NCBI RefSeq assembly: GCF_014646875.1
Contig: NZ_BMOC01000011.1
Location: 1-64,000 of the forward strand
Reading direction: 5' to 3'
DNA: 64,000 nt
Source: Halobellus salinus
Lineage (GTDB): Archaea > Halobacteriota > Halobacteria > Halobacteriales > Haloferacaceae
The notes under the pieces were generated by a model. It saw nothing but the letters and a program-made list of their open reading frames with translations. It made no database searches and was not told the DNA's origin. Position 1 is the first letter of the stretch, and every line of letters starts with the position of its first letter. Made by a program: the position numbers and the translations under genes. Of this stretch, positions 4,999 to 8,958 are shown piece after piece.

Positions 4999-7900
4999 AT
5001 GGAACAGGCAGGGCTCACCGACGGCTGGACCGACGGTGACGACGCCGGCGCCCGGCCGGACGCAGAGGCGGTCGCGGTCGCTGGCAACGGCGGCGGTCAC
5101 GTTTCCGAGGTCGTCGACAGCGAGGACATCCGGTTTCCCGACGCCGACGGCACGGTCGAGTTGATGGTGACGCAGGTGAACTACTCGATCGAGGGCAGCG
5201 GGAGTCGGGAGTACCCGGTCGTCCACGTCTTTGGCCGCACCGCCGACAACGAACCGGAGCACGTCCGCGTCCTCGGGTTCGAGCCGTACTTCTACGCGCC
5301 CACGGAGAGCCTCGACGACGACATCCTCGACCGCGACGTCATCACCCGCACCGAGGACGGGTTCGAGAGCATCCGCGGCGACGACCTCACGAAGATCTGC
5401 ACGCGAACGCCGCGGGACGTCGGCGCGATCCGCGACGACTTCGACCACTACGAGGCGGACATCCTCTTTCCCAACCGGCTGCTCATCGACAAGGACATCA
5501 AAAGTGGAATGAGCGTCCCCGCTCGCCGGCTCGACGACGGTTCGGTCCAGATCCCCCACGACGAGGTCGAGCCCGTCGAGGTCGCAGCCGACCTCCGCGT
5601 GAACACATTCGACATCGAGGTCGACGACCGCTCCGGGTTCCCGGAAGAGGGCGAAGAGCCCATCGTCTGTCTCACGAGTCACGACTCCTACCGCGACGAG
5701 TATATCGCGTGGCTCTACAACGCGCCGGCCACCGTCGATGGGGTGGAGAGCCCCGACGACCTCCCCGGCTACGAGCCCTTCCGAGAGGACACTGAGGTCG
5801 AGGTCCGTACCTTCGAACGTGAGGAGGCGATGCTCGACGCCTTCGTGTCCTACATCCAGGAGACAAATATAGATATTATGACAGGGTGGAACTTCGAGGA
5901 CTTCGACATGCCCTACCTCCTCGATCGAATGGAGGTGCTCAACCCCGCCGCCGCCGAGGACCTCAACCCCGATCGGCTCTCCCGGATCGACGAGGTGTGG
6001 CGCAGCGGGTGGGGCGGCCCGGACGTGAAAGGTCGGGCCGTGTTCGATCTGCTCTACGCGTACAAGCGCACCCAGTTCACCGAACTCGAGTCCTACCGGC
6101 TCGACGCCGTCGGCGAACTCGAACTCAACGCGGGCAAGGAGCGGTACACCGGCGACATCGGGGACCTCTGGGAGGAAGAGCCCGAGCGACTGCTCGAGTA
6201 CAACGTCCGCGACGTGGAGCTCTGCGTCGAGATCGACCGCAAACAGGACATCATCGCCTTTTGGGACGAGGTCCGCACGTTCGTCGGGTGCAAACTGGAG
6301 GACGCGCCGACGCCGGGCGACACCGTCGACCAGTATATTCTCCACGAGGCCCACAACCGCTTCGCGCTGCCGTCGAAGGGCAAGGCCGACGCCGAGGAGT
6401 ACGAGGGCGGCGCGGTGTTCGATCCGATCTCGGGGGTCAAGGAGAACGTAACTGTTCTAGATCTGAAGTCTTTGTACCCTATGTGTATGACAACAATTAA
6501 CGCCTCGCCCGAAACCAAGGTCGACCCCGAGGCCCACGGCGGCGAGACGTTCGAGGCGCCCAACGGGACCCACTTCCGGCGGGAGCCCGATGGGATCATC
6601 CGGGAGATGATCGACACCCTCCTGTCCGAGCGGGAGGAGAAGAAGTCGCTGCGGAACGACTACGACCCCAACACCCAACCGTACGAACAGTACGACCGCC
6701 AGCAGCAGGCTGTCAAGGTAATTATGAACTGTTTCACGCCGGACACCGAGGTTCTCACGCCCGCAGGCGTTCAGAACATCCGTGATCTCGGTGTCGGCGA
6801 CGAGGTCTACTCGATCGATCCTGACACACTGCGGATGGAGACGAAGCCAGTCGAGGAGACCCACGAGTACCCGGAGTATCGCGGGGACCTCGTGGACATT
6901 CAGACGAATAAGACCGACTTCCGAGTGACGCCGAACCACCGGATGCTGGTGCGGAAGAACTCGAAGAACGGGGCGACGTGGGACGGCTACCGGTTCGTCG
7001 AGGCCGGCGACCTCGACGAGTACTCCAACTACGAACTCCCGCACGACTGGTCGGCCGACCACGGGGATCCGATCGAGGAGGTGGATCTTACGGAACTCCT
7101 CGACGACAAGTATGAGGTATGGGTTCGGCCATCCGTTCACGGGCATACCTTCACTGCGGAACTGGGGTGGACACCGCGGCGCGTTCCGAAGGCCGGTCGC
7201 GGAGAGACCGGGTACGTGTTCACCGCCGACGAGTTCGAGACCCACCGCGAGTACATCGAGTCGGTCTGTGTGACCAGTTTCGTCCACCGGGAGTCCGGAC
7301 GGAAATGGGTGCCGCGCACCTACGACGGTGACGACTTCCTCGAACTCCTTGCGTGGTACGTCACCGAGGGCAACGTCCACACATCGAGCAAGAAGCAGTT
7401 CGGCGAGAACTACCGCGGGCCCGCGACCACGGTCAAGATCGCACGGAACGCGGGATCCGACGGTAGCGAGAACGCGATCCCGGACGGCGGCGACGGGGGA
7501 GAAACCGATCACGCGCGGATCGGATCACTACTCGACCGCTTGGGACTGGACTACTACGTCGACGACCGGTCGTACCAGTTCACCTCCCGGCTCTTCGGTG
7601 ACCTTCTCGAGCGTCTGTGTGGCGAGGACAGCTTCACGAAGCGGATACCCGACCTCGTCTTCGGCGCCAACGAGGCGCAGAAACGTCTGTTTCTGGAGAC
7701 GCTCGTCGCGGGCGACGGTGACCGCCAGGTAGGATCGTGGCGGTACACCACGTTGAGCGAACGGCTTCGCGACGACGTGCTCCGGCTGTGTACACACTTG
7801 GGCGAGACCGCGAGCTACAATCACGACAGCGGGTCGTGGCGGATCTACTGCACGGAGGGTGCCAAGAACTCGTTCCGGATGCACCGCAGCGGCGGCCGGA

Positions 7901-8958
7901 GCACTGCCGACGACGGCGTCTACTGCGTGACCGTCGCCGACAACAACACCCTGCTCGCGGGTCGAAACGGAAAGTTCCAGTTTGTTGGGCAGTCGCTCTA
8001 CGGCGTTTTGGGGTGGGATCGGTTCCGGCTGTACGACAAGGAGATGGGCGCTGCGGTCACCGCAACGGGTCGTGAAGTGATCGAACACACTGCCGAGGCC
8101 GCCAACGAACTTGACAGAGAAGTTATATACGGCGATACTGACAGCGTTATGTTAGAACTCGGACACGATGTCTCCAAAGCAGACGCCATCGAGCAGTCCT
8201 TCGAGTTGGAGGAGTATATCAACGACTCCTACGACGAGTTCGCGCTGGAAGAACTGGACGCCGCCGCCCACCGGTTCCAGATCGAGTTCGAGAAGCTCTA
8301 CCGCCGCTTCTTCCAGGCGGGCAAAAAGAAGCGCTACGCCGGCCACATCGTCTGGAAGGAGGGTAAAGACGTCGACGACATCGACATCACCGGCTTCGAG
8401 TACAAGCGCTCCGACATCGCGCCGATCACGAAGGAGGTCCAAAAGCGCGTCATCGAGATGATCGTCCGGGGAGAAGAGACCGACGACATCGCGGACTACC
8501 TCAACGGGATCATCGAGGATTTCGAGACGGGCGAGGTCTCCGTCGAGGAGATCGGCATCCCCGGCGGGATCGGCAAGCGACTCGACGCCTACGACACCGA
8601 CACCGCACAGGTCCGCGGCGCGAAGTACGCAAACGAGTTCCTGGGCACCAACTTCGGCCGAGGGTCCAAACCCAAGCGACTCTACCTCCGGAAGGTCCAC
8701 CCCTCGTGGTTCCGCGAGATGGAATCGCAGGGGTACGATCCCCAGCGCGACCCGCTGTACACCGAGTTCAAGCGCGACCCCGACGTGATCTGCATTGAGT
8801 ACGACGACCAACTCCCCGACGCCTTCGAGGTGGACTGGGACAAGATGCTGGAGAAGACGCTGAAAGGGCCGATCGAGCGGATCATCGAAGCGTTGGGGAT
8901 GTCGTGGGACGAGGTGAAATCCGGGCAGGAACAGACTGGCCTCGGGAGTTTCACGTAG
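4999..8958 (+). CDS. polB: Family B DNA polymerase (PolB) with one intein
   Basis: A 1319-residue precursor. Removal of the intein (residues 578-998) leaves an 898-residue replicative polymerase. The 3'-5' exonuclease motifs are present: Exo I NTFDIEVDD near 201, Exo II GWNFEDFDMPYL near 296, Exo III YNVRDVELC near 400. Polymerase motif A (LDLKSLYP, about 486) and motif C (YGDTDS, about 1043) are intact. Motif B is split by the intein between Asn and Ser. The ATG at 4999 was chosen over an upstream in-frame ATG because it starts just after the promoter. Codon use turns AT-rich at Exo II, motif A and motif C, unlike the rest of the gene (see findings). Confidence 0.96.
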   Translation: MEQAGLTDGWTDGDDAGARPDAEAVAVAGNGGGHVSEVVDSEDIRFPDADGTVELMVTQVNYSIEGSGSREYPVVHVFGRTADNEPEHVRVLGFEPYFYAPTESLDDDILDRDVITRTEDGFESIRGDDLTKICTRTPRDVGAIRDDFDHYEADILFPNRLLIDKDIKSGMSVPARRLDDGSVQIPHDEVEPVEVAADLRVNTFDIEVDDRSGFPEEGEEPIVCLTSHDSYRDEYIAWLYNAPATVDGVESPDDLPGYEPFREDTEVEVRTFEREEAMLDAFVSYIQETNIDIMTGWNFEDFDMPYLLDRMEVLNPAAAEDLNPDRLSRIDEVWRSGWGGPDVKGRAVFDLLYAYKRTQFTELESYRLDAVGELELNAGKERYTGDIGDLWEEEPERLLEYNVRDVELCVEIDRKQDIIAFWDEVRTFVGCKLEDAPTPGDTVDQYILHEAHNRFALPSKGKADAEEYEGGAVFDPISGVKENVTVLDLKSLYPMCMTTINASPETKVDPEAHGGETFEAPNGTHFRREPDGIIREMIDTLLSEREEKKSLRNDYDPNTQPYEQYDRQQQAVKVIMNCFTPDTEVLTPAGVQNIRDLGVGDEVYSIDPDTLRMETKPVEETHEYPEYRGDLVDIQTNKTDFRVTPNHRMLVRKNSKNGATWDGYRFVEAGDLDEYSNYELPHDWSADHGDPIEEVDLTELLDDKYEVWVRPSVHGHTFTAELGWTPRRVPKAGRGETGYVFTADEFETHREYIESVCVTSFVHRESGRKWVPRTYDGDDFLELLAWYVTEGNVHTSSKKQFGENYRGPATTVKIARNAGSDGSENAIPDGGDGGETDHARIGSLLDRLGLDYYVDDRSYQFTSRLFGDLLERLCGEDSFTKRIPDLVFGANEAQKRLFLETLVAGDGDRQVGSWRYTTLSERLRDDVLRLCTHLGETASYNHDSGSWRIYCTEGAKNSFRMHRSGGRSTADDGVYCVTVADNNTLLAGRNGKFQFVGQSLYGVLGWDRFRLYDKEMGAAVTATGREVIEHTAEAANELDREVIYGDTDSVMLELGHDVSKADAIEQSFELEEYINDSYDEFALEELDAAAHRFQIEFEKLYRRFFQAGKKKRYAGHIVWKEGKDVDDIDITGFEYKRSDIAPITKEVQKRVIEMIVRGEETDDIADYLNGIIEDFETGEVSVEEIGIPGGIGKRLDAYDTDTAQVRGAKYANEFLGTNFGRGSKPKRLYLRKVHPSWFREMESQGYDPQRDPLYTEFKRDPDVICIEYDDQLPDAFEVDWDKMLEKTLKGPIERIIEALGMSWDEVKSGQEQTGLGSFT
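6730..7992 (+). other. Intein with LAGLIDADG-type homing endonuclease in PolB motif B
   Basis: A 421-residue in-frame protein intron. It starts with Cys (CFTPDTEVLTPAG, splicing block A), has block B with VTPNHRM, and ends FQFVGQ directly before Ser of the C-extein (SLYGVLGW). The two dodecapeptide motifs are LLAWYVTEGN (about precursor residue 781) and LFLETLVAGDGD (about 896), each with an acidic catalytic residue, so the homing endonuclease looks intact. The insertion point, Asn|Ser-x-Tyr-Gly, is the known motif-B site. The last residue is Gln and the one before it Gly, in place of the usual His-Asn. Block F reads ADNNTLLAG with Asn where His is common. Confidence 0.92.

Follow-up and report, generated by a model that had tools for sequence, protein, structure and literature searches.

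Patches of AT-ending codons at vacant intein insertion sites in haloarchaeal replication genes

Our study identified patches of AT-ending codons that gather at intein insertion points in haloarchaeal replication genes, where they arose many times and mainly mark sites that are empty of an intein. These patches are not peculiar to the Halobellus salinus genome; they are found haloarchaea-wide in polB, and also in mcm and DP2. From the sequences compared, we give a probability of about 0.5 to the reading that the patches are vacant homing sites rewritten under homing-endonuclease pressure, either as escape alleles or as scars left by cutting and repair.

Codon patches in the polB gene of the window

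The window, a stretch of 64,000 nucleotides from Halobellus salinus, contains a polB gene interrupted by one intein, whose extein (898 aa) has a GC3 of 0.86. We take the four polB intein letters to correspond to Exo II (d), motif A (a), motif B (b), and motif C (c). The features considered here are the following.

4999..8958, forward strand: polB, family-B DNA polymerase, with N-extein 4999-6729, intein 6730-7992, and C-extein 7993-8958 (open reading frame with Pfam DNA_pol_B, DNA_pol_B_exo1, and Hint)
5863..5892, forward strand: patch on the left side of polB-d (Exo II), which is empty and has its insertion point between 5892 and 5893; relatives have their intein at the same junction, with +1 Cys
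6448..6498, forward strand: patch spanning polB-a (motif A), empty here, with its insertion point between 6468 and 6469; relatives' inteins lie between LDLK and SLYP
6718..6729, forward strand: brief run of AT-ending codons to the left of the intein at polB-b (motif B), which is inserted between 6729 and 7993; part of the widespread flank GCT GTC AAG GTN ATT ATG AAY
6730..7992, forward strand: intein at polB-b (421 aa); its matches are a Hint splicing domain and, weakly, a single LAGLIDADG_3
8107..8181, forward strand: patch spanning polB-c (motif C), likewise empty, with its insertion point between 8136 and 8137; relatives' inteins lie between IYGD and TDS

AT-ending codons make up 37 of the 88 codons located at most 12 codons from the four intein sites, against 85 of 781 elsewhere in the gene (p=5e-12). 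A sequence-only reading of this DNA had placed such patches at four stretches of polB. Using a fixed-window permutation within amino acids, three of them were confirmed as far beyond chance (p=5e-5 for each), namely 5863-5886 (6/7 AT-ending codons), 6448-6498 (11/15), and 8107-8157 (10/16), whereas the fourth, 6718-6726 (2/2, p=0.014), is weak when taken alone. A blind scan of the extein returned codons 289-295 (5863-5883), 484-500 (6448-6498), and 616-640 (8107-8181) and no other segments, so the patch at motif C is enriched where it had been proposed but extends further, to 8181. The polB-d patch is left-sided and stops 2-3 codons short of the junction. In conserved polB stretches away from the intein sites, the AT3 excess is absent (mean -0.027).

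The names of polB inteins a to d follow an earlier report (PMC4071816). In a set of 174 haloarchaeal polB genes, we located inteins between TGWN and C (polB-d) in 8, between LDLK and SLYP (polB-a) in 15, between VIMN and SLYG (polB-b) in 71, and between IYGD and TDS (polB-c) in 38. The four stretches of the window coincide with these residue junctions; the tie between patches and PolB intein insertion points that had been proposed from the window holds at all four, and it holds class-wide and for mcm and DP2 as well. The window's own alleles are empty at polB-d, polB-a, and polB-c and occupied at polB-b, and the three empty targets are altered at many positions, with 6-11 AT-ending codons each. 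As for the resident polB-b intein, its single LAGLIDADG_3 match compares with two in the polB-a intein of L116, and its endonuclease may be degenerating. The window's genome (L309, L235) has further inteins: mcm contains three, and DP2, the large subunit of polD, contains one.

Patches across haloarchaea and across genes

Runs of AT-ending codons were scanned for against each gene's own amino-acid-specific background. In 170 GC-rich haloarchaeal polB genes, 113 AT-rich runs were found, 92 of which lie at the four intein sites, compared with 14.6 expected; codon use followed along polB in many haloarchaea, as the sequence-only reading had advised, places these runs at the intein sites. The polB genes that were fetched later served as a replication set; of their 62 runs, 52 lie at the four sites (8.5 expected). 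For mcm, scanned in 58 genomes of the family, 38 of 39 runs lie at the four mcm intein sites against 5.0 expected, and at the main intein site of DP2 (between KRRN and CDG; 20 genes) the 13 empty alleles have a raised AT-ending signal that the 7 occupied alleles lack (p=0.005). By comparison, 306 neighbouring control genes with a similar codon total yielded no internal run reaching a score of 12, against 50 in polB; the sole control-gene run listed above a score of 11 (GWNFEDFDMP) is polB itself.

Because patch calling itself picks AT-ending codons, synonymous identity over all codons was used as a second measure. This identity reaches its gene minimum at polB-b, polB-c, MCM 335, and MCM 362, despite highly conserved residues. 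Between close genome pairs, synonymous difference is 2.05 times the gene mean at polB-c and 1.78 times at polB-b, and is not raised over the gene mean at polB-a and polB-d, where patches are rarer. Class-wide, the rise at polB-a is restricted to empty alleles, and at polB-d none was seen beyond a few patched alleles. Synonymous divergence therefore peaks at the insertion points and not at controls, strongly at polB-b, polB-c, MCM 335, and MCM 362 and weakly at polB-a and polB-d. Two other measures were set aside: the rare-codon count relative to clade neighbours is uninformative because these neighbours also bear patches, and the excess of two- and three-base synonymous switches within patches is no proof of block import, since higher divergence alone suffices to produce it.

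Patches in empty and occupied alleles

In the 170-gene scan, patched alleles at polB-c numbered 43 of 134 empty and 2 of 36 occupied; the corresponding counts were 10/155 and 0/15 at polB-a, 11/163 and 0/7 at polB-d, and 19/103 and 18/67 at polB-b, where the contrast is not significant. Allele counts are non-independent events; the patches were also placed on a host tree (a quick FastTree, with the site regions left out). On this tree, the patch state changed at least 28 times at polB-c, at least 29 at polB-b, at least 11 at polB-d, and at least 8 at polB-a. Phylogenetically independent pairs at polB-c linked the patch to the empty allele 9.9 times and to the occupied one 0.3 times (p about 0.002); the corresponding counts at MCM 335, which we take from its position to be MCM-a, were 6.4 and 0.0 (p about 0.03). 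Pooling eight polB and mcm sites, the values were 32.1 with empty and 6.1 with occupied, while a plain stratified test across all eight yields a weak association (OR 1.65, p=0.04); MCM 401 presents no contrast between empty and occupied alleles. On average, AT3 in the patched empty alleles peaks between about codon -9 and codon +8 relative to the junction, and the profile of occupied alleles at polB-a and polB-c is flat.

Origin and meaning of the patches

According to the reading that we favour, intein homing endonucleases circulating among haloarchaea would cut intein-free polB, mcm, and DP2 at fixed points, and the alleles that stay intein-free would tend to be those in which many synonymous target positions were altered together, with loss of recognition by the enzyme. 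Since almost every native target codon ends in G or C, protein-neutral change would largely suffice to make a patch AT-rich. The patches, at 50-75 nt, exceed the usually quoted size of a LAGLIDADG recognition site, so selection on enzyme contacts alone would be insufficient for their length. Rewriting might take place through repair of the break with a diverged copy that lacks the intein as template, through mutation, or both: repair from such a copy would explain block edges, shared haplotypes, and the co-varying residues found in Halorubrum polB-d patches, and mutagenic repair would explain host-like codons at polB-c. Patch blocks between close genome pairs do have sharp edges, and the codon choice of polB-c patches is mostly host-like; base-specific convergence is present at polB-b Ala571 and polB-a Val484/486 and was not found at polB-c. 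When an intein invades, the donor's flanks could replace the patch. A published study of the polB endonuclease from Haloferax volcanii states that a single synonymous change is tolerated by enzymes of this kind (PMC3024317), and escape would thus need several changes. The sequence-only reading had offered, as its alternative, selection on the DNA of the homing target; this comes closer to the data, but what the patches suggest is change away from the target and not its upkeep.

The same breaks might leave neutral scars, in which cutting followed by error-prone or diverged-template repair creates a synonymous hotspot without conferring resistance, and homing then overwrites the scar in occupied alleles. 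Such overwriting would yield an equal contrast between empty and occupied alleles, which counts against a reading by escape only. The peaks of synonymous divergence in empty and occupied alleles alike, the sharp-edged blocks, and the host-like codons at polB-c are all in agreement with scars, and the same idea has been put forward for mobile mitochondrial introns (PMC5378118); however, scars do not by themselves predict recoding throughout in some empty alleles and none in most, and we consider this explanation rather unlikely. Selection on codons at catalytic motifs that is unrelated to inteins, through translation pausing or RNA or DNA structure, might be suspected from the fact that the patched sites are catalytic motifs. 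It is highly improbable, given that the remaining conserved polB windows have no excess, that patches are present in some species only, and that their edges centre on intein junctions in three genes; a search for RNA elements at the patches gave no Rfam match.

The sequence-only reading had proposed co-conversion tracts from AT-richer intein donors, with the inteins later lost at Exo II, A, and C. Several observations are what such tracts would leave: the patches are blocks adjoining insertion points, the polB-b haplotype GCT GTC AAG GTT ATT recurs in distant species, the polB-a haplotype GTA ACT GTT CTA GAT is common to Halobellus and Natronococcus, and at polB-c the block of the occupied Halorubrum alleles is a different one, marked by amino-acid changes and an indel. 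Nevertheless, the main prediction of this account fails, since the flanks of occupied alleles at polB-a, polB-c, and polB-d are GC-rich, and the comparison of species with and without inteins finds patches mostly in empty alleles at these three sites, though not at polB-b, and likewise in independent pairs. Intein loss meets a further obstacle at polB-d, where the +1 residue is Cys in 8/8 occupied alleles and Phe in 163/166 empty ones: loss would require a return from Cys to Phe, so simple excision cannot have left the empty Phe allele. Co-conversion itself takes place, but here in the opposite direction, the occupied polB-c alleles of Halorubrum having a GC-rich block compared with close relatives that are empty and patched. 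We therefore regard AT-rich donors followed by intein loss as distinctly unlikely.

The search for a donor was likewise negative among the haloarchaeal, viral, and plasmid sequences considered. The affinity to AT-rich species that had been anticipated did not emerge, as the window's patches lie no nearer to the AT-rich L036, L121, L134, and L149 than to GC-rich haloarchaea. Viral contigs contained no match to any of four exact patch patterns or to a degenerate one, nor did a protein-level scan of them find any; the identity of haloviral PolB does not exceed 38%, and its other motif residues differ. Two plasmid polB paralogues gave no match to the patches. Haplotype sharing across clades was not found overall to be concentrated at the sites, because family-level relatedness dominates. 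The polB-b flank GCT GTC AAG GTN ATT ATG AAY is present in distant species whether or not their alleles are occupied. Its type requires 15 changes on the intein tree and 13 on the host tree, so that travel with a b-intein clade fits no better than descent along the host tree, and the evidence from polB-b on co-conversion is ambiguous.

The closest precedent is the polymorphism at mobile-intron boundaries in yeast mitochondria, where Repar and Warnecke (2017) reported raised polymorphism at exon boundaries, found no donor, and proposed co-conversion or mutagenic repair (PMC5378118). In both systems diversity peaks at the insertion points of homing elements; the haloarchaeal patches differ in concerning inteins in archaeal replication genes, in being synonymous and AT-directed, in lying between species, and in their excess in element-free alleles. 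Exon co-conversion at the plant cox1 group I intron resembles the patches as a short tract at the insertion point with block replacement, but the cox1 tracts match intron-bearing donors (PMC3192709), whereas the patches at polB-a, polB-c, and polB-d are unlike intein-bearing alleles. A study of haloarchaeal MCM inteins, concerned with the same hosts and the same type of homing, described laboratory escape mutations and invasion-resistant alleles and discussed +1 codon co-conversion; it compared targets mainly as amino acids and reported MCM-a as conserved (PMC10643990), while at the codon level few places in mcm vary as much as this site. The patches also resemble the resistance alleles of homing gene drives, in which a recoded target persists since the nuclease stops cutting, with the difference that the patches are natural and comprise many codons and that their resistance would be deduced from sequence. 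In the open-access papers searched, no report of synonymous recoding at archaeal intein sites was found.

If vacant homing sites have indeed been rewritten, synonymous DNA would contain a legible reason why intein sites stay empty, which is an enduring puzzle of the homing cycle. Researchers would also have hundreds of naturally recoded targets for studying the origin and spread of nuclease-resistant alleles, the main question for homing drives. Comparisons of homing sites as amino acids would overlook variation, and codon-based measures near intein sites would be locally disturbed. We suggest, only tentatively, that the patches may form a class-wide record of resistance, in which essential replication genes repeatedly escape through largely protein-neutral recoding of many codons and cut alleles are perhaps repaired from recoded ones, spreading resistance through breakage and repair just as an intein spreads.

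Some individual alleles deserve mention. In the Halorubrum genomes L301-L307, six genomes share an identical 41-nt recoded block at polB-d, GACGTAGATCTTATGACGGGGTGGAATTTCGAAGATTTCGA, from which the seventh departs at one base, and the six compared genes of this set differ outside the block. At polB-a, the +1 Ser (6469-6471 in the window) is encoded by TCN in 15/15 occupied alleles and by AGY in 65/159 empty ones, a switch that needs two substitutions. The reading frame of the polB-d intein seems broken by a frame change or a stop in L117, L119, and L208, which may reflect decay inside an essential gene or an assembly error. Finally, the C-terminal 160 codons (738-897) of the L170 gene (G398 polB) form one block rich in AT-ending codons unlike the remaining gene, and this end of polB is likely a recombinant.
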